A stretch of DNA of 50,046 bases, taken from Terriglobia bacterium (GTDB lineage Bacteria > Acidobacteriota > Terriglobia > UBA7540). The notes beneath the pieces are model-generated. The model was not told the origin of the DNA. It worked only from the letters and a program-made list of their open reading frames with translations, and ran no database searches. The DNA lies in NCBI GenBank assembly GCA_020073545.1, contig JAIQEZ010000018.1, positions 1-50,046 on the forward strand, read 5' to 3'. Both the position numbers and the translations under genes were made by a program. Shown here in pieces: positions 3,526-21,436 of the stretch; position 1 is the first letter of the stretch; every line of letters begins with the position of its first letter.

Positions 3526-4236
3526 ATGCGAAAGGCTTTCAAATCGTGGACGCGCGTGCTGCTCGCCGGCGCGCTGGCGCTCGCCGTGGGGCAACCGGCC
3601 CCCGCTCGCAAAGGCAAGGTGCCGGCGGACCTCCCGGAGGTTCTCTCCCAGATGAATGAGGCGGCCAAGCGCCTGAAAACCGTCTCCGCCAATCTCGAGT
3701 ACACCAAGGTCACGGTGCTCGTGAACGACAAATCCACAGAAACGGGCCAGATCCTCTACCGCAAGACCAAGAACCCGGAGATTCGCATCGACATCCAGAA
3801 GCCCGACCGCAAGGTCATTCTCTTCAAGAAAAACAAGGCGGAAATCTACCTTCCGAAGATCAATCAGATTCAGGAATACGACCTGGAACAGAAAAGCGGG
3901 CTGGTGCAGCAGTTCCTGCTGCTGGGCTTCGGGCAGGAAACTGGCGAACTGAAGAAATCTTACAGCGTGAAGTATCTCAAGGAAGAAGACTTGGAGGGCG
4001 ACGCGACCGCGCTGCTGGAGCTCCTGCCCCGCAAGGAAAACATCGCCACACAACTCGTGAAAATCCAGCTTTGGATCAGCGAGGAGTCCTGGCTGCCCGT
4101 GCAGCAAAAATTCTTTGAAAGCGACGGCGACTACTTCGTCGCGCACTATACCGGCGTGAAAGTGAATCGCGCCCTGCCCGGCTCGACCTTCGAGTTGAAG
4201 CCCGCCCCCGGCGCGAAACGCGTCAAGATGAATTGA
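3526..4236 (+). CDS. LolA-like periplasmic outer-membrane lipoprotein carrier protein
   Basis: ATG 3526 gives a 236-residue product with a typical signal peptide: a basic start, a hydrophobic core 'VLLAGALALAVG', and an Ala-rich cleavage zone near residue 27. The frame is open further upstream to 3403, but that part overlaps the preceding gene. The mature part reads as a LolA-type half-barrel: an N-terminal helix 'AAKRLKTVSANLEY', alternating strands including 'ILYRKTKNPEIRIDI', and a late 'WISEESWLPVQQKF' strand like those in LolA and outer-membrane lipoprotein-sorting proteins. LolA carries lipoproteins across the periplasm after LolCDE releases them, so it matches the ABC genes upstream. 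The substrate here may be another lipid. Confidence 0.7.
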   Translation: MRKAFKSWTRVLLAGALALAVGQPAPARKGKVPADLPEVLSQMNEAAKRLKTVSANLEYTKVTVLVNDKSTETGQILYRKTKNPEIRIDIQKPDRKVILFKKNKAEIYLPKINQIQEYDLEQKSGLVQQFLLLGFGQETGELKKSYSVKYLKEEDLEGDATALLELLPRKENIATQLVKIQLWISEESWLPVQQKFFESDGDYFVAHYTGVKVNRALPGSTFELKPAPGAKRVKMN

Positions 4237-4736: not shown

Positions 4737-4738
4737 GG

Positions 4739-4926
4739 CATCGGACCATCGGTTCAAGCCGGTGATGGTCGTTCGCTGACTCACTGCTTCACTGACCCAG
4801 TGGTTCAGTCCTTGGTCCCTCGTTGCTGGTCTCGGAATCGTGTCATCGGACCATCGGTTCAGCAGACGATGGTCGTTCATTGACTCACTGATTCACTGAC
4901 CCGGTGATTCAGTCCTTGGTCCCTCG
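4739..4926. repeat. Tandem direct repeat, two units of about 83 bases at 104-105 base spacing
   Basis: Unit 1 (4739-4822) and unit 2 (4844-4926) both begin CATCGGACCATCGGTTCA and both end CAGTCCTTGGTCCCTCG. In between both carry GATGGTCGTTC, then GACTCACTG and TTCACTGACCC with a few substitutions and one indel. Each unit also holds a degenerate 'CACTGA/TCACTG' word series. No reading frame is shared, so this is noncoding repetition. Confidence 0.8.
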
Positions 4927-9661: not shown

Positions 9662-10468
9662 TCATGCGAGAAACTTGCGTAAGTACGGATCCGGGGAGCG
9701 GGTTAACTCCTGCTCACTGCCCCGGAAATAGACTCCGGCGTCGCGCAGCACCAGGAAGCGGGTGGGAGCGATGGCGTCGGGAGGGCGGATCGGTTTCAGC
9801 GGTACCAGGGTTTGTTTTTCGGTGGAAAAGAAATAGTTGGCGAGCACAAAAGCGTCCTGCAAGCGGTGGGTGACGACCACCGAGGTAACGTGTTGCACAT
9901 CGCGCAGCTTGGCAATGAGCACGTTGATGGTGTGGCCGGTGACGGGATCGAGTCCGCCGGTGGGTGAGTCGTAGAGCATGATGGAGGGGTCGCTGACGAT
10001 GGCGCGCGCCACCGAAACGCGGCGTCGCATGCCCCCCGAGAGCTCCGAGGGCATTTTCTCGATGGCCGGCTCCATTTCGACGAAGCGCAACAGTTCGCGC
10101 ACCCGCCGCTCGATGGCGGCTTCGTCCTCCAGGTGCTCTTCGCGCAGCCGATAGGCGACGTTCTCGAAGACCGAAAGGGAATCGAAGAGCGCCCCTTCCT
10201 GAAAGACAATGCCCATGCGCTTGCGAATGGGTTGCAGGCTGGTTTCCGGAAGGGGAACGAGATCATGACCTTCGATCAGCACCTGCCCAGCGTCGGGCTT
10301 CAGGAGACCCAGGATCAGCTTGAGGATGACGGATTTTCCCGAACCCGTGACGCCGAGCAGAATCAGGGTTTCGCCGGCTCCCAGAGCAAAGGAGATATCG
10401 GAGAGAACACGTTTGCTCTCGAAGGAGAGGGAGACGTTGCGAAGCTCAATGGCGGGTGTTGCGCTCAT
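9662..10468 (-). CDS. mlaF: ABC ATPase of the Mla lipid transporter
   Basis: The 268-residue ATPase has Walker A GVTGSGKS (about residue 39), signature LSGGMRRR (about 143), and Walker B followed by 'YDSPTGGLDP'. The residue after the Walker B Asp is Ser where most ABC ATPases have the catalytic Glu (codon TCA on the coding strand), while the H-loop 'VVTHR' is intact. The neighbours are the MlaE permease upstream and the MCE protein downstream, so the family assignment is firm. I recall related MlaF-like ATPases with the same DSPT motif, so this may be a lineage trait rather than inactivation. It powers phospholipid transfer between the membranes. Confidence 0.88.
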   Translation of the reverse strand: MSATPAIELRNVSLSFESKRVLSDISFALGAGETLILLGVTGSGKSVILKLILGLLKPDAGQVLIEGHDLVPLPETSLQPIRKRMGIVFQEGALFDSLSVFENVAYRLREEHLEDEAAIERRVRELLRFVEMEPAIEKMPSELSGGMRRRVSVARAIVSDPSIMLYDSPTGGLDPVTGHTINVLIAKLRDVQHVTSVVVTHRLQDAFVLANYFFSTEKQTLVPLKPIRPPDAIAPTRFLVLRDAGVYFRGSEQELTRSPDPYLRKFLA

Positions 10469-13158: not shown

Positions 13159-13734
13159 TCATCCTTCGGGTCTTGGTGCAACCTGGGATGGTGGCCGAGC
13201 CGGCGGATCCGCTTGCGCCTTGGCCGACGCCCACTTCTTCAGAAATCCAGTGAGCTTTTTGAGACTATAGGTCCGGCCGTGCTGGAATACACCGGTGTCC
13301 TGCGAATGCAAGAGCGCCCCCTTTGAATCCAAGACAAAGAAGTGGGGGTAGTCTGCGATGCGGGGATAACGCGAGAGGAATTCTTCGTTGGGGTTGTCCT
13401 TGCCGTAGTTGATCTTCACCCGCACGTAATGGCTTTCGCGCAACTCCTGCAGGTTGGGATGATCCTGGAAGAGGTTGTCCATGATGTGGCACCAGATGCA
13501 CCAGTCGCCGCCGACCTCCAGCAAAATGCGCTTCTGGGTTCGCGTGGCCTCGAGGATGGCATCCTGAAGATCCTTCCCGGGGCTTCGCGCCGGATCGTAG
13601 ACGGTCACCGGCGTGTAATTTGAGGGCCCCGGAGGTGGGACTTTCTTATGCCGCCCAAAACTCGCCGAGACTACCACGCACAGGCACACGGCAAGCGCCC
13701 CACCGTGTTTCAACGCTCTCCCTGGTTCTGACAC
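13159..13734 (-). CDS. Secreted thioredoxin-like protein (thioredoxin_7/DUF255 type)
   Basis: GTG 13734 is chosen because AGAGGAGGG lies 7 bases upstream and a signal peptide follows (GALAVCLCVVVSASFG); the frame is open back to 13860 without such support. The 191-residue product has a thioredoxin fold with active site GGDWCIWCHIMD (about residue 73), a CxxC with Ile-Trp between the cysteines. The cis-Pro loop is 'RIADYPHFFVLD'. The C-terminus is Pro-rich. The long spacer between the signal and the domain and the WCxWCH motif suit periplasmic disulfide or cytochrome-related chemistry, but nothing nearby names a partner. Confidence 0.75.
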   Translation of the reverse strand: MSEPGRALKHGGALAVCLCVVVSASFGRHKKVPPPGPSNYTPVTVYDPARSPGKDLQDAILEATRTQKRILLEVGGDWCIWCHIMDNLFQDHPNLQELRESHYVRVKINYGKDNPNEEFLSRYPRIADYPHFFVLDSKGALLHSQDTGVFQHGRTYSLKKLTGFLKKWASAKAQADPPARPPSQVAPRPEG

Positions 13735-13910
13735 TCTCAACCCTCCTCTGGCGCAGGGTCGCCGGTAGCCCGAAAATGGACCGGGTGGCACAAAGAAATC
13801 CCTTGCTCCGAAACAAGTGTCAGTTGTACGGCCGGGCCGCCTTCGGCCCCCGGGGCTCATCCTGCGCCGCGCCCTTTACATGAGGAATCGCCAATCGAAT
13901 GTACGCCCCA

Positions 13911-16580
13911 TTAGTGCTTCACTGCTGTAGACAAGACGGACACAGCCTGAGCGAGCATGTGAGCAAGAGTGCTGGTTTCGGACACGGCATCGTCGGGGAC
14001 GACCGCGTACAACCAGGGCTTGTCGCCCTGTTTCTCATTCGCGACCTCGCACCATTGCATTGCGGCCCGTGCCTTGCCCTTTACGTCTGGATCGTTCAGT
14101 TCGTCACGGGCTTTGACCTCAATTAGGTGGTGGTTCGTTTTTGTTTCGACGATAAAATCGATGTTGTAGGTTTCGCCCTTGAAAAAGATAGGCGTCTGAC
14201 CCAGGGGCGGCCGGGCCCACTTCAAGACTTCCGGGTCATCCTCAAGAGCAATCGCGAATCTGCGTTCAGGGTCCGAGTCAAAGCCGGTCTTATTGATGAC
14301 CGACTTTCGTATTCCGGTGAAAAGGAACCGCCGGATATCGCTTTTTCTGTCCACAAGAGTTCGAAGGTCCACCTCACCGTCCTTTTGGCGGATGGATTTC
14401 GAAAAGGGTTGAAACACCCGAAGGGGGGCCACGATCTTATGGCTGACTTGTGTGTCGTCGTAAATGTGAGCCTGAACTTGCGCGCCAAGGTCTTTAACCA
14501 TTGCGTATCCGTACTGGTGCACCAGCTTGCGTAGTTCGTCTTCGGATTTGCCAGTAGCTGCCAGGTAGTCTCTGGCGAGTTGCAGGATTCGTTCCTTGTC
14601 CTCTGTCGCGTCGAATTCCTCGACTTCATCCAGTAGCAGGCCGGCCAAATGCTTGACGGGTTCTTGAACCTCCTCCAATGTCAGCGCTTCTCCGGTTTCC
14701 TGTTCGCCTGACTTCAGGTCAGCAGAACGGATGTGTTGCTCAACCAGCGAGAAATCGCTCGACGGTTTAGGCGCAAACGGTTTAAACCCGATCTTGGGAT
14801 CAATGTACGTACGAATATCGGGAACGTCGATCTGAAGAGTCAGCGCGTCAACTTCTTTTGCGATACGGTCTCTCAACTCCCGCGTAACCTGCTCGGCATC
14901 AATCGGAACCATCAACTCCTCAGCAGTGGGAAACAGGCCCGCTTGTCCAGGTGCCGGTGTTTCTTCGCCGACTCCGAGGACGCCACCGGCTGCAGCCGCC
15001 GCACGCGAAGCAGCGAGCGCTCGCGACCGGTTGAGGATATCTTCGATAAGCTTCTCTCGACGCTCAGCCTCCAGCAGTTCACCACTTGAAGTCACTTCGC
15101 CACTCTTGACTAATCCTTGGATTACCGCCGTCGTCTCTTCTGAAAAGAGGGTTGGCACCTTGACGGCCTTGAGAGGCTCGCTGTCCTCTTGGGAGAGGTC
15201 TCGAATTGGGTCACGGAATAGGTCAGCCCTGGCGTTCTTTGCCGCTAGGATTTCCTGGTATTTGTCGTGCGACACAATGGAAAGGCGCAGAATCTCAGGG
15301 TCGTCGTGGTTCAATGCCGAGACCTGAGACTCAGTGAGCGGCAGGGGTAAGCGGAGGCCGCGACCGATCGTCTGTTCAGTAAGAATCTCGGAGACAGAAG
15401 CACGGAGCGGGACCATCGTGTAAAGATTCGTGACGTCCCAGCCCTCCTTGAGCATTGTCACATGGACGACCACCTCGACACTGCTGGCAGGGCTCTCCAC
15501 CTCCAAAAGGCGCCGGATGTTTTCGTCGCTTTCTTCTTTAGTATTTGGCTTGGAGTGAATTTCAATCACCTTGCCCTGGTATGCGCCTCCCTCGAACTCA
15601 CTTGACTCAAGATACTCGTGGACCTTCTTTGCGTGCTCTATATCCCGCGTTGAGACAAGTACAAAAGGCTTCACGGGTGGATAGCCATTGGCAGCGCAGA
15701 ACTCAACCAAACGAGCCTTCTTCTCTTCGTGGAGGTAAATACCGTCCTTGAGTTTCAGGGTATCGATGATTGCTTGGTCGGAAGCGGTGAGGTTAGTTCT
15801 TGTCACCACCCGTGGTGACTTCACAAATCTCCCGATGGCCTCCCCGAGACCGAAGGAAAACAGCACATTGCCTTTGAACTTCGGCGTCGCGGTAAACTCA
15901 AGACCCAAGACCGGCTTCAAGTTGTGAACGGCCTTGAGGGAAGCTGGGGCGCGGTAGCGGTGACTCTCATCCATCAAGACGACGAGGTCGCCCATCTGTT
16001 GCAGGATTGCAGCAAAACTATCACCCAGAGTCTCATTGAACCGGTGGAACCGGAACTGGTTACGACCCGCTTCGTCCTTCTCCTGGGCGCTGAATATCTT
16101 GCCGATATTGAAGACAAACACGTTGGCCCTGTCTTCTGAACCGAATAGAGGGCGGCCTATATTAAAGCGTAGATAATTGTCTCCGTCCCACACATCGGGT
16201 TGCGGGAAATCGGCGAGGCCGTTGAAAATGTACTTTGAGTGAGAAGGCTGCAACTCCGCCCGCAGCTTATCGTAGATAGTGCTTCCGGGTGCAAGGATGA
16301 AGAAGTTCCGGTATCCACGAGTCCGCCACAGGTCGTAAATGCAGGCTCCCATCAGGCGCGTCTTGCCGATGCCGGTTGCTAAGGCAAAGCAGAATGATGG
16401 GAACTCCGTGTCGAACTCGATCTTTTCGACGCCGGCCTGCGAGACTGCGGCTTGGGCAACCGCATCCAAAGTTGTTTTCTTGAAATCTACCGCTTCTGCA
16501 GTGGCGTGAAGCCGCTTGAGAGACTCGTGTTGCGGCGCGCGCAATGACATCCAGCGCCCGATTTGGTCAGCGAGGCTCAT
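13911..16580 (-). CDS. res: Type III restriction enzyme Res subunit (helicase-endonuclease)
   Basis: ATG 16580 overlaps the mod stop as TAATG, giving 889 residues. The superfamily-2 helicase motifs are in order: Walker A 'ATGIGKTR' (about residue 68), motif II 'LMDESHR' (about 204), motif III 'EFTATP' (about 231) and motif VI 'QTIGRGLRLP' (about 410). Near the C-terminus 'YNIDFIVETKTNHHLIEVKA' (about 825) is a PD-(D/E)XK nuclease core (D..EVK). Res translocates on DNA and cuts when two unmethylated sites meet, always in complex with Mod. The frame extends 35 codons further upstream, but the coupled start is far more likely. The gene looks intact. Confidence 0.9.
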   Translation of the reverse strand: MSLADQIGRWMSLRAPQHESLKRLHATAEAVDFKKTTLDAVAQAAVSQAGVEKIEFDTEFPSFCFALATGIGKTRLMGACIYDLWRTRGYRNFFILAPGSTIYDKLRAELQPSHSKYIFNGLADFPQPDVWDGDNYLRFNIGRPLFGSEDRANVFVFNIGKIFSAQEKDEAGRNQFRFHRFNETLGDSFAAILQQMGDLVVLMDESHRYRAPASLKAVHNLKPVLGLEFTATPKFKGNVLFSFGLGEAIGRFVKSPRVVTRTNLTASDQAIIDTLKLKDGIYLHEEKKARLVEFCAANGYPPVKPFVLVSTRDIEHAKKVHEYLESSEFEGGAYQGKVIEIHSKPNTKEESDENIRRLLEVESPASSVEVVVHVTMLKEGWDVTNLYTMVPLRASVSEILTEQTIGRGLRLPLPLTESQVSALNHDDPEILRLSIVSHDKYQEILAAKNARADLFRDPIRDLSQEDSEPLKAVKVPTLFSEETTAVIQGLVKSGEVTSSGELLEAERREKLIEDILNRSRALAASRAAAAAGGVLGVGEETPAPGQAGLFPTAEELMVPIDAEQVTRELRDRIAKEVDALTLQIDVPDIRTYIDPKIGFKPFAPKPSSDFSLVEQHIRSADLKSGEQETGEALTLEEVQEPVKHLAGLLLDEVEEFDATEDKERILQLARDYLAATGKSEDELRKLVHQYGYAMVKDLGAQVQAHIYDDTQVSHKIVAPLRVFQPFSKSIRQKDGEVDLRTLVDRKSDIRRFLFTGIRKSVINKTGFDSDPERRFAIALEDDPEVLKWARPPLGQTPIFFKGETYNIDFIVETKTNHHLIEVKARDELNDPDVKGKARAAMQWCEVANEKQGDKPWLYAVVPDDAVSETSTLAHMLAQAVSVLSTAVKH

Positions 16581-18148
16581 TAGACGCGATCCTCCTCGAA
16601 CGAGCACTTGGCCAGAAGGTCTCGGGGAATTTTCTTCACTTCGATGTTGTGTGGCACCTTCAGGCCTGATGCCCGCCGGGTGCAATAAATAAGTAGAGCT
16701 TCTTGCTCTCCCAGTTGCACGGTCACAGAATCGAGATGTCGTTGGCTCAAGAGGCTTGTCGTCACGTACAGAAAATGGTGCTCGCTCGACGCCCCGTGCC
16801 AGCGATTGTCTCTTAGATACCGGAAGTTCTCGATCTTGCAGATAGCCCGGATGAGCATCTTGGCATCGTATTTCGGATTGACGACGTAAACAGGCTTTTG
16901 GGCTGTCGAGAGGTCCTTGTCAGTGACGAGGAGAGACTCTGCGAGCCGATAGAAATTGAATCCCCCTCCGCCCTTCCACCCCACGGCCTCGCTGACCCCT
17001 CCCCGATCGGCTCCGTCGATCACCTTTTGGAGTCTCGGAATTATCACCTCATGGCAGTGTTTTCCAAGTTCCACCATGATCCACCGGCGACGCATCTTAT
17101 GCGCAACGGCACCGGTGGTGCCTGAGCCCCCAAATGAATCAAGAACCACATCCCCGGGGTTCGTTGCGATCTCCAAAATCCTCTTTATCAAGCCCTCCGG
17201 CTTTGGGTTGTCGAATACTGCCTTGCCGTTAAAAAGGGCGATCAAGTCCTTCTTGGCACTGTCGTTCGTTCCCACTTCGTCGGCGCGCCAGATGGTTTCG
17301 GGTGTCAGCCCTCTCCCTTCGGTATCGCTCAGGAACCTCTTGACTCTAGGAACACTTCTTCCATCCTTGCCGAACCAAATGTTTCCCTTTGCAATCTCTT
17401 CTTCCATGCGCTGCTGCGTGTACAGCCAGCATCTGCCCGCGGGCGGATCAAGAAGAACACCTGCGGGCGTCTTCAGCTTATAGAATTGACTCGGTGTACC
17501 GTGGCCCGCCATCGCGTTAGCAGAGACCGATTGCCATGGTCCGCGTGGATCATTGTCAGGGTTCTTATATCGGCCGCGCACCTCATCACTCAATGGAAGC
17601 AGATTTCTCGTTTGTTCAAAGCGCGCTCGATCGCGAGCAAAGACCAGAATGTAATCGTGATTAAAGGAAAAGACGCGCCGGTTCTCACGCGAAGTCCGTT
17701 TCTCCCATATTACCGTTGCAACGAAATTCTGGCGCCCCAAGATCTCATCGAGCAAGACTCTCAGATAACCAGCTTCGTTGTCATCGATGCTTACCCATAG
17801 TGATCCTTCTGGCTGGAGAAGACGTCCGAGAATTTCAAAACGATCTCGCATCAGAGAAAGCCAGATTGAATGCTCGAGCCCGTCCTCAAAATGATCAAAC
17901 GCTGAGCCTGTGTTATATGGCGGGTCGACATAAACGCACCTGATCCCACCGGTAAACTCTTGCTCCAAAGCCTTTAGTGCGAGCAGGTTGTCACCGAAGA
18001 TTAGGCGGTTATCAAATAGGCTCTCGTCGGAGACGCGATGTGGCGCGTGATAGGACCGGGGCGCGTCTTCCAGCAGGATTCGCGGCTCCAGTGCAGGCCG
18101 GTTCTCCTTGCCAACCCACGTTAGCTCTAGTTTTTGCCTACCAGTCAT
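16580..18148 (-). CDS. mod: Type III Mod subunit: site-specific DNA adenine methyltransferase
   Basis: ATG 18148 gives 522 residues; the frame is open for 10 more codons. The catalytic motif DPPYNTG (about residue 78) comes before the SAM-binding motif 'DSFGGSGTTG' (about 334), the order of beta-class N6-adenine methyltransferases. The region between (about 120-320) is the target-recognition part. Mod defines the recognition sequence and is needed both for protection and for Res cleavage. It is translationally coupled to res (TAATG). Its N-terminus resembles a remnant at 19301-19447, evidence that the locus once held a second related methyltransferase. Confidence 0.9.
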   Translation of the reverse strand: MTGRQKLELTWVGKENRPALEPRILLEDAPRSYHAPHRVSDESLFDNRLIFGDNLLALKALEQEFTGGIRCVYVDPPYNTGSAFDHFEDGLEHSIWLSLMRDRFEILGRLLQPEGSLWVSIDDNEAGYLRVLLDEILGRQNFVATVIWEKRTSRENRRVFSFNHDYILVFARDRARFEQTRNLLPLSDEVRGRYKNPDNDPRGPWQSVSANAMAGHGTPSQFYKLKTPAGVLLDPPAGRCWLYTQQRMEEEIAKGNIWFGKDGRSVPRVKRFLSDTEGRGLTPETIWRADEVGTNDSAKKDLIALFNGKAVFDNPKPEGLIKRILEIATNPGDVVLDSFGGSGTTGAVAHKMRRRWIMVELGKHCHEVIIPRLQKVIDGADRGGVSEAVGWKGGGGFNFYRLAESLLVTDKDLSTAQKPVYVVNPKYDAKMLIRAICKIENFRYLRDNRWHGASSEHHFLYVTTSLLSQRHLDSVTVQLGEQEALLIYCTRRASGLKVPHNIEVKKIPRDLLAKCSFEEDRV

Positions 18149-18215
18149 ATTGTTCTGGGTTCGTCTGTGATTCCACAATGCATAGATTTTAAATTAGGCT
18201 CACCAGGTCATCGGG

Positions 18216-19304
18216 CTAACCACCTAATCCTCTGAAGAACGTCACTCGACCAAGAGCGCGGACATTCGTCAGTAAGCGCCGGACGCGGCGTGCTTCGTAC
18301 GGGCAGCGTCTCTTCAAATACTCGCTAGCTAGCCGATGGCTTCCAGTGCCCGGCATCAGTAACCGATAGCGGAACGTGCGAGTTGCCACTCTCACAAAAA
18401 TCGCGATTGGTCGACCACGGGACGGGTATTGAAGGTCAGATGCGGCTTCAAGCTCGAAGCGGTAGTTGTGACTTTTCACAGCGACGCTCGGCCGCACCTC
18501 TGGCGGGCCAGTGAGCCCACGGGTGTCAACGTGAGTGAGCATTATCCGTTGTGTACGACCTGGCTTGGCTCCAAAAAAACCAGAAAATGTGTCTATGTCA
18601 AAGTTCGCCTGATTCCAACGGTTGCCTCCCCTCGGAATTTCGGCGATTAGTACCGCGGTGGCGTCTGTTGTGGCCGGACCGACAGAAATATTACCGTTGC
18701 GATCCTCTACGAGGATGTTACGCTGTGGTCTTGTCTGGGCGCGGTTCCGTCTCGCGTTCTCGCGTGCACGTCTCCGAACGCGGGGGTCGTCAACGGGCAG
18801 CAGATCCGACTCATGAAAGCGAGACCACGAATTCCACTTACGCTGCAGAGTCCTTAGTTGCACCGTCGTTAGTCTCGCAATGGAGAAAGCTTCACAGTTA
18901 CCCCGAAGGCCGCCCGGTGTGAGATTGCCCGAGCCCACGAGGCAGACACCGCCAGAGGGGTGGCGGAACCAACACATCTTCGGATGGAAAACACTTCCGG
19001 GCATACTGCCCAGAAATACGCGAGGCGTCAGGTTGGGGTGCTCCCCAGCGGTGGCTGAAATTGCGTCAAGGGCGTTGATGTCGGTAATTGCATCCACGCC
19101 GACAACCAGTTCAAAAGGCGACTTCGAAAGAAAGCGCGAGAATTCCGGATCTCGAAGCAGAAGCTTAACACCCGGCGCAGAAGCAAAGGCGAATACGCCC
19201 ATTCCACTCGTTGCATCTTCGCAGGCCACCAGTATTTCCTCGAGAAGATATGTGGAATCTGGCCACTGTGAGTCCTGGATGCAAGTTTTCATAGCGTCTT
19301 TCAT
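18216..19304 (-). CDS. Phospholipase-D-family nuclease-like protein in the restriction island
   Basis: The 362-residue protein contains one PLD catalytic motif: 'SVFHPKMCWFR' followed by 'CLVGSGNLTPGGL' (about residues 104-135), matching H.K(x)n GS.N as in NgoFVII-type and DISARM DrmC-type nucleases. One motif per chain means that a dimer would build the active site. The C-terminal half is Arg-rich with a beta-rich domain, plausibly for DNA binding. ATG 19304 overlaps the stop of the Mod remnant as ATGA, so coupled translation is likely; ATG 19313 is also possible. It lies upstream of mod and res on the same strand. Nuclease activity is inferred from the motif and context. Confidence 0.7.
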   Translation of the reverse strand: MKDAMKTCIQDSQWPDSTYLLEEILVACEDATSGMGVFAFASAPGVKLLLRDPEFSRFLSKSPFELVVGVDAITDINALDAISATAGEHPNLTPRVFLGSMPGSVFHPKMCWFRHPSGGVCLVGSGNLTPGGLRGNCEAFSIARLTTVQLRTLQRKWNSWSRFHESDLLPVDDPRVRRRARENARRNRAQTRPQRNILVEDRNGNISVGPATTDATAVLIAEIPRGGNRWNQANFDIDTFSGFFGAKPGRTQRIMLTHVDTRGLTGPPEVRPSVAVKSHNYRFELEAASDLQYPSRGRPIAIFVRVATRTFRYRLLMPGTGSHRLASEYLKRRCPYEARRVRRLLTNVRALGRVTFFRGLGG

Positions 19305-19447
19305 TGCGGCCATGCGGCACGCAATTTGAGCTTCTCCGGGTCTTCGGGCAGGATGCGCGACTCCACTTTCGACCGGTTTTCCTTGCCAACCCGGGTGAGT
19401 TCGAGTTTGCCTTTTGGCGGCCTGTCCCCGTTGTTCCTGATCGGCAT
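19301..19447 (-). pseudogene. N-terminal remnant of a second type III Mod methyltransferase
   Basis: A 48-codon frame from ATG 19447 to TGA 19301 contains GKLELTRVGKENRSKVESRI, which aligns with QKLELTWVGKENRPALEPRI at the start of the intact Mod (18148). The DNA is diverged, so this is an old paralogue and not a fresh copy. The frame ends before any catalytic motif. Its start lies 2 bases after the stop of the SNF2-like remnant, and its stop overlaps the start of the PLD gene, so the native order was helicase, then methyltransferase. Confidence 0.6.
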
Positions 19448-19449
19448 CT

Positions 19450-19587
19450 CTATACTACCTTCCACGCGATCTTGAAAAGAAGCTCCGCCTCGATGCTTTG
19501 TTCGAGGCGTGCCTCAACCTCACTGATGAGCGCTTCTTTCCACCGATCAATTTCGTCCTGAGCATCATACAGCGCCCGCCGCGTCGG
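19450..19587 (-). pseudogene. C-terminal remnant of an SNF2-family helicase
   Basis: The minus-strand frame between TAA 19588-19590 and TAG 19450 encodes 45 residues: 'RRALYDAQDEIDRWKEALI', then 'SEVEARLEQSIEAELLFKI' and 'AWKVV'. I recognise this as the typical tail of SNF2-type helicases that sit beside DNA methyltransferases (pattern: RR.L(Y/F)DAQDEID...LI..(I/V)E..L.Q....LF.I.W). There is no start codon, and nothing upstream continues the homology in any frame, so the rest of the gene has been lost. In class 1 DISARM such a helicase (DrmD) precedes an adenine methyltransferase, which matches the order here. The family call is by eye. Confidence 0.5.
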
Positions 19588-19647
19588 TTATCACCCGCGC
19601 CGTCCCTATCTGATGCTGAAAATAATAACACCCATTCCTTGAAGAGT

Positions 19648-19737
19648 CTCGCCGCGCGAAGCAACAATTTTACGGAAGGGGTGGTGAACGCATGCCGCCA
19701 TTCGTGAGAGACTTCGCCTGTCTCGGATGGCCTCGGG
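19648..19737. repeat. 90-bp direct repeat flanking the vapBC cassette, copy 1
   Basis: This copy matches 20777-20866 at 87 of 90 positions (both begin CTCGCCGCGCGAAGCAACAA and end GGATGGCCTCGGG). It lies between the SNF2 remnant and the toxin gene. It has no convincing coding content; the frames through it differ between the two copies. Confidence 0.9.
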
Positions 19738-20776: not shown

Positions 20777-20866
20777 CTCGCCGCGCGAAGCAACAATTTT
20801 GCGGAAGGGGTGGTGAACGCCTGCCGCCATTCGTGATAGACTTCGCCTGTCTCGGATGGCCTCGGG
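20777..20866. repeat. 90-bp direct repeat flanking the vapBC cassette, copy 2
   Basis: Same orientation as 19648-19737 with three substitutions. Its left edge is part of a hairpin (AATTGTTGC at 20769-20777 against GCAACAATT at 20790-20798) whose left arm lies outside the shared 90 bases and is missing in copy 1. Confidence 0.9.
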
Positions 20867-20908: not shown

Positions 20909-21436
20909 ATGAAGAAGACGCTCGTGCTTGTTGCGTTCTTAGCTTTCCTGCTGGCGGCCTGGCCGAACACGGCGCTCGCGCAAGGGGAGTTCGAAAAGGT
21001 TACCGGCGAGGCCTTCATCAAGGCCGTACCCAATGATTTTTACCTGGAAGGAAACCGCATTCCCGTGGAGAAGCGAAACGCCGTTCTGCTAAAGACCCCC
21101 AAAGGCGCCCGGGTGGTTCTGGCGCTGATCGATACGACGGGCTACAGCTCGCGAATCAAGCAGAAGTACACCGGCATGTTGATTTCGGAAGGCAAGGTTT
21201 CCGTGTGCAGCATTTCCATCGACGTGGGCAGCTACGGCTTCGGGTTGGATACTCCCAAACCCCCAAGCAACGAGGGCGCCAAGTTTATGCTTTATAACCA
21301 GGCCGGCGACGAAGTGGGCGGGTGCACCGCCAAGAAAGATGACAGCATAAAGGTACCCCGGCCGCTGGCGGTGAGCATCGCCAAGGGTGTACCGGCAAAA
21401 CTCGATCTGGGCAAGTACACCCTGGAAATCAAGTAG
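20909..21436 (+). CDS. Small secreted protein of unknown function
   Basis: ATG 20909 follows a strong AAGGAGGAG. A classic signal peptide (KKTLVLVAFLAFLLAAWPNT, cleavage near ALAQ at about residue 25) leads a mature part of about 150 residues. It is beta-rich, with a segment 'RVVLALIDTTGYSSRIKQKY', one Cys at 'SVCSISIDVG' and another at 'VGGCTAKKDD', which could form a disulfide. No family was recognised. It stands alone: a repeat element follows 12 bases after the stop, and the vapBC repeat copy 2 ends about 40 bases before the start. A periplasmic or surface role is implied by the signal only. Confidence 0.75.
   Translation: MKKTLVLVAFLAFLLAAWPNTALAQGEFEKVTGEAFIKAVPNDFYLEGNRIPVEKRNAVLLKTPKGARVVLALIDTTGYSSRIKQKYTGMLISEGKVSVCSISIDVGSYGFGLDTPKPPSNEGAKFMLYNQAGDEVGGCTAKKDDSIKVPRPLAVSIAKGVPAKLDLGKYTLEIK

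Follow-up and report, generated by a model that had tools for sequence, protein, structure and literature searches.

The window, a 50,046-nucleotide stretch of DNA from a Terriglobia bacterium, contains an island whose genes all lie on the minus strand in the order SNF2 tail, Mod head, PLD, mod, res (Table 1). A vapBC-like pair (PIN and RHH matches) follows beyond the SNF2 tail, before the conserved chromosomal gene. It lies between the two copies of a 90-bp direct repeat, the only two in the assembly. The conserved flank, placed by alignment to a genome of the same genus, begins inside the outer copy, which suggests that the repeat is a boundary duplicated on arrival of the module. An empty site was sought in the genus; the right flank alone is conserved and the pre-insertion state was not recovered.

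Table 1. Features of the island and its borders (positions in the window).
Feature	Position	Strand	Description
Thioredoxin-like gene	13159-13860		Borders the island on the res side
res	13911-16580	minus	Intact type III Res; open frame extends to 16685
mod	16580-18148	minus	Intact type III Mod, adenine methyltransferase
PLD gene	18216-19313, probable start Met4 at 19304	minus	Predicted BfiI-like PLD restriction endonuclease
Truncated Mod head	19301-19447	minus	48 codons and stop; former Mod
SNF2 (DrmD-like) helicase remnant	19450-19587	minus	Last 45 codons and stop
90-bp direct repeat, inner copy	19648-19737		97% identical to outer copy
90-bp direct repeat, outer copy	20777-20866		Conserved chromosomal flank resumes at ~20826
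Conserved chromosomal gene	20909-21436	plus	Borders the island on the opposite side

The mod and res genes are intact, as the initial annotation had them. Mod matches PADLOC model PDLC03636 (4e-172) and Pfam N6_N4_Mtase (4.9e-43), and its DPPY and FxGxG (DSFGGSGT) motifs, together with the type III profile, identify it as a type III N6 methyltransferase. Res matches PDLC03648 (PADLOC REase_III, 3e-108) and Pfam ResIII (1.6e-20). It combines an SF2 motor with a C-terminal PD-(D/E)XK-like domain, the latter weakly matched by a TnsA-like nuclease model (residues 817-880, 3.2e-5), and it adjoins Mod as in a type III restriction-modification system. The island resembles systems of the EcoP15I/EcoP1I kind in its intact Mod and Res, the expected motifs and the mod-res order, but differs from them in having a DrmD-like SNF2 gene (as a remnant) and a cargo gene before Mod-Res. 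To our knowledge, classical type III loci are preceded by neither.

Upstream of the PLD gene lie two short fragments that had been read from the sequence as the tail of an SNF2 helicase and the head of a second Mod, and profile searches bear out both identifications. The 45-codon fragment (open frame 19587-19453, stop at 19450) is the sole match when all 1306 six-frame segments of the window are searched with an SNF2-tail profile built from 24 SNF2 C-termini. The fragment aligns to model positions 28-70 of 70 (E = 1.1e-15), and 28 of 43 residues are the same as in the tail of the intact SNF2 proteins of L012, L059 and L062. A Mod-head profile that left out the window's own sequences finds 19447-19301 (E = 6.7e-9) and the intact mod, and nothing else in the window; PADLOC MTase_III also matches the fragment (E = 0.0028). 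Given these E-values, the fragments are therefore not chance matches. The SNF2 stop stands 2 bases before the ATG of the Mod head, as had been noted, and the two remnants are in operon order with SNF2 upstream. Both look like debris, because conserved W, P and R residues are gone from them. A search for an intact DrmD-like helicase elsewhere in the assembly found none; SNF2 has been lost from the island apart from its tail. L069 and the IMG/VR viral contig L100 likewise keep an SNF2 tail upstream of Mod; in L100 the remnant (9837-9986) lies directly upstream of Mod and records loss of SNF2 on mobile DNA too.

The order SNF2 helicase, cargo gene or genes, Mod and Res was found in about 40 loci, mostly in Acidobacteriota, with others on plasmids of several phyla and on two viral contigs. 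A search for PLD relatives led to genome G191 (L010), with an intact SNF2-PLD-Mod-Res operon, and to G365 (L012), with SNF2-AAA-PLD-Mod-Res; L085, on a Roseomonas plasmid, is a further intact SNF2-PLD-Mod-Res relative. The expectation that PLD would be found beside Mod and Res elsewhere is borne out by these three loci. Of the intact SNF2-mod-PLD-mod-res order to be looked for in relatives, SNF2-PLD-Mod-Res is what was recovered in L010 and L085, and in L012 an AAA gene intervenes. The search for Mod relatives gave many further SNF2-linked loci in the phylum, and tblastn with SNF2 returned 50 plasmid records; the 10 that were inspected come from several phyla and are arranged as SNF2-[cargo]-Mod-[cargo]-Res. 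The cargo comprises RecF-like AAA, OLD-like AAA with TOPRIM, YhcG PD-(D/E)XK nuclease, AbiJ, AbiV HEPN, Abi family, AIPR, Schlafen-type, protein kinase, DUF262, DUF4276, DUF3800, DUF4411, VapC and PLD proteins. Most of it is of the Abi/toxin type, and some SNF2-Mod-Res loci carry no cargo.

In the Mod tree, SNF2-linked Mods fall on one side of a branch (93/96) and those without SNF2 on the other. The window Mod is nested in the SNF2-linked type III clade as sister to the L010 Mod (100/99), and the window Res is 72% identical to the Res of L138, an SNF2-YhcG-Mod-Res locus in which SNF2 is intact. With an SNF2 gene, here as a remnant only, upstream of a Mod of this clade and then Res, the island is, judged by its sequence, a degenerate SNF2-cargo-Mod-Res locus that has lost SNF2. 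Each of its proteins is of a known kind; the arrangement and the pattern of exchange are the new part. The cargo-bearing type III slot is widespread and little described; in the open literature, as distinct from subscription journals, we found no description of an association of SNF2 with type III restriction-modification or of Mod-head scars.

The window's Mod head and the start of the intact mod form a 72-nt direct repeat with 78% identity (18062-18133 and 19337-19408). A recent copy of the island's own mod is not favoured as the origin of the head; the L060 Mod is nearer (60 of 72 bases, against 56 of 72 for the window's own Mod), a margin too small to fix the source. Against the Mod of L137, codons 1-45 of the window Mod are 51% identical and codons 46-310 are 86-88% identical, and this jump puts a putative junction near codon 45-60. 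Truncated Mod heads stand before cargo, between it and the preceding gene, in four other loci (L012, L058, L072 and L105, the last with two; E = 6e-4 to 6e-15). None was found away from cargo on either strand of 90 sources, the remaining matches being true mod starts or weak matches within Mod. The L072 and L105 remnants are nearest to the Mod of their own locus, so scars of this kind may arise by more than one route. In L105 (oriented along Mod) two truncated heads, at 4065-4115 and 4737-4811, succeed each other before the intact Mod, as if there had been two entries of cargo.

An exchange is recorded in L012, which can be compared with two SNF2-AAA-Mod-Res loci of the same genus, L059 and L062. 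SNF2 (96%), AAA (94%) and Res (96-97%) are nearly identical between them. The first ~320 codons of the L012 Mod are foreign to L059 and L062, and the remainder is 90-97% identical. Directly after the AAA gene of L012 stands a decayed Mod head, followed by PLD; 52 of 69 bases of this head are like L059 and 31 of 69 are like the Mod of L012 itself. The PLD cargo therefore arrived together with a new 5' part of Mod, and the old Mod head was left. The Mods of L059 (10535-12169) and L062 (10184-11818) differ at codons ~100-310 and are otherwise alike, which amounts to a simple swap of the recognition region with the cargo unchanged.

No useful match came from searching PHROGs or PDB sequences with the PLD protein by itself; the family profile alone, built from 16 relatives, reached BfiI (2c1l, E = 1.3e-4). 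H110, K112, N130 and E141 of the window PLD are invariant in the family and align with H105, K107, N125 and E136 of BfiI, which we take to be its catalytic residues. They form a single HxK...N...E active site in an N-terminal PLD nuclease domain (residues ~1-185), which is followed by a DNA-recognition domain (residues 213-364). The AlphaFold model (mean pLDDT 86) matches the fold of BfiI, SauUSI and the R protein of NgoAVII, and BfiI is the best match by both profile and Foldseek; the structure comparison lists some PLD families only, and absence from its list is uninformative. In the predicted fold, residues 213-364 superimpose on the DNA-bound BfiI C-domain (3zi5; Z-score: 11.3, r.m.s.d.: 3.5, 138 aligned) and residues 219-352 on LlaJI.R1 (6c5d; Z-score: 11.1, r.m.s.d.: 2.8, 117 aligned), as expected of a C-terminal B3-like DNA-recognition domain. 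Profile and model together show a predicted BfiI-like restriction endonuclease with a DNA-recognition domain of its own.

The PLD active site and B3-like domain of BfiI, a type IIS enzyme of the PLD superfamily, have been described (PMC4081073). The window PLD shares with it the N-terminal nuclease, the aligned H/K/N/E residues and the fold of the C-terminal recognition domain; it differs in its very low sequence identity outside the motif and in its place inside a type III operon, without a dedicated methylase of its own. CglI and NgoAVII (PMC4267653, PMC5737866) also have an endonuclease with PLD and recognition domains (fold match 4rct) beside a helicase-like ATPase and a methylase, but in both the ATPase is a DEAD-family N/H protein in complex with R, whereas the ATPases in loci of the window kind are type III Res and, in relatives, SNF2. 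As CglI and NgoAVII show (PMC4267653), a PLD endonuclease can rely on a helicase-like ATPase, so that a dependence of this PLD on Res, or on SNF2 in the intact relatives, is possible by analogy.

Elsewhere the PLD family is mostly found as an endonuclease-like gene in methylase cassettes, either with an Eco57I-like and an N6/N4 methylase or with a Dam-like and a short methylase. No relative was confirmed in viral contigs. The window PLD is sister to the second, type II-like PLD-Dam-MT group (100/100). A sister grouping of the window and L010 PLDs was rejected (p-AU 0.0014), so PLD probably entered SNF2-Mod-Res operons more than once.

These type II-like cassettes (L005, L013, L014 and L030) have two separate methylases and neither Res nor SNF2, yet they contain the closest kin of the window PLD and a methylase recognition region like that of the window Mod. 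The test of specificity was framed post hoc, after the data had been seen, and covers few loci. Against the cassette PLDs the window PLD is 43-49% identical in the recognition domain and 31-36% in the nuclease domain; in nearly every other PLD the nuclease domain is at least as similar as the recognition domain. The L010 and window Mods rank first and second of 38 in recognition-region similarity to the cassettes' short methylases (~54%, against 43-46% in the catalytic core), and the recognition region is more alike than the core in only 4 of the 38. Between L012 and L085, which make up the other PLD-bearing pair, the recognition-region match (61%) is the best that either has. These parallel matches of recognition parts to the same cassettes point to a PLD that probably reads the same DNA sequence as Mod, the two being a matched endonuclease and methylase. 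Against shared specificity count L137, which has the window's Mod recognition region (88%) with YhcG as cargo, and L065, which has a similar region and in which no PLD was seen; as a rule, recognition regions are exchanged without regard to cargo. The Dam-like methylase of the cassettes was not found in the window's genome, which also counts against it and leaves host protection without an explanation.

The reading we favour, and consider probable as a whole, is that the island is a degenerate SNF2-cargo-Mod-Res operon in which PLD was inserted at the 5' end of mod and shares the specificity of Mod. Insertion would have stranded the old Mod head upstream as a scar. PLD and Mod would read one DNA sequence, and methylation by Mod would mark self DNA for both nucleases. 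Like other type III enzymes, Res would cut once two unmodified sites had communicated in an ATP-driven process, and PLD would cut near unmodified sites by PLD chemistry, which needs no metal. Phage or plasmid DNA that lacks the modification would then be attacked twice. Type III methylation of one strand may leave newly replicated host DNA exposed to such a cutter; PLD may need two sites, as BfiI does, or be controlled by Res. The initial annotation had offered an undescribed compact system, with PLD working with Mod and Res, as one possibility; the partnership with Mod is the part of it that is probable. More tentatively, and with slightly greater doubt than belief, we propose a general slot at the 5' end of mod, where cassettes would bring cargo with a new Mod head, sometimes with the whole recognition region, and leave a scar. 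A BfiI-like PLD would arrive there matched to the Mod recognition region, and the result would be a type II/III hybrid in which one methylase serves a pair of unrelated restriction enzymes.

PLD might instead be one more interchangeable Abi or effector cargo with a target of its own, housed or triggered by the type III complex and sharing nothing of the specificity of Mod. The Abi/toxin character of most slot cargo, which has no expected tie to Mod specificity, the usually independent variation of recognition regions and cargo, and L137 with the window's recognition region and no PLD are all as such cargo would predict. We nevertheless hold it unlikely: PLD has a BfiI-type DNA-recognition domain, the recognition parts of PLD and Mod match the same type II-like cassettes more closely than their catalytic parts do, and in L012 PLD and the 5' part of Mod were replaced together.

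The Mod head could also be a retained leader that supplies the ribosome-binding site and start of a mod gene and translates PLD by coupling. Its TGA does overlap the ATG of PLD Met4 (ATGA, 19304-19301), the overlap of Mod-head stop and PLD start seen in the original reading; Met4 aligns with Met1 of PLD relatives, and the head remnant of L058 also ends at the start of its cargo gene. Yet the residues conserved in Mod heads have been lost, remnant lengths vary among loci and the L012 remnant has no such junction with PLD, which makes a leader a rather improbable explanation compared with the scar that we prefer.

The initial annotation had also proposed a decayed class 1 DISARM system (DrmD, DrmMI, DrmC) joined to a type III system. 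Class 1 DISARM shares with the island and its relatives a DrmD-like SNF2 helicase (in the relatives), an adenine methylase and a PLD protein. The SNF2 proteins of intact relatives match PADLOC DrmD strongly (E = 1e-203 to 1e-219), and this DrmD-like sequence explains the resemblance; against DrmD_b they score 685-734 bits, where the NCBIfam cut-off is 950, and the window itself retains a 45-codon tail only. Neither DrmA nor DrmB (DUF1998) has a PADLOC match among the island genes and their neighbours, and the window PLD, BfiI-like rather than DrmC, has no PADLOC match to DrmC at E <= 1. The methylase is a type III Mod of the SNF2-linked clade with a Res of its own. No fusion is needed, as a single SNF2-Mod-Res operon recurs in different phyla, and PLD is cargo within it. 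Membership of DISARM was rejected for want of DrmA and DrmB, and both the decayed DISARM-like system and its joining to a type III system are highly improbable. An assembly or binning artefact, to which a draft genome of 261 contigs might be prone, is scarcely credible for fragments inside a 50-kb contig beside a flanking gene conserved in the genus, with like scars recurring in other assemblies.

The SNF2 helicases of the type III operons L010 (6711-10181) and L012 (12811-15684) are matched by PADLOC and NCBIfam DrmD models. Current models thus label the SNF2 gene of type III operons DrmD, and automated calls may mistake such helicases for DISARM parts.

If the favoured reading is right, a gene slot with readable scars would be a concrete route for the exchange of weapons among restriction systems, and the island would be a natural example in which a single methylase licenses two endonucleases that differ in mechanism. 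It would also offer a test of how a one-strand methylase coexists with a type IIS-like cutter. The comparison points in addition to two groups of uncharacterised PLD restriction cassettes. One of them, Eco57I-like methylase, N6/N4 methylase and BfiI-like PLD (L015-L018, L020-L029 and L031), is widespread, with hosts in Planctomycetota, Acidobacteriota, Pseudomonadota, Nitrospirota and Chloroflexota.
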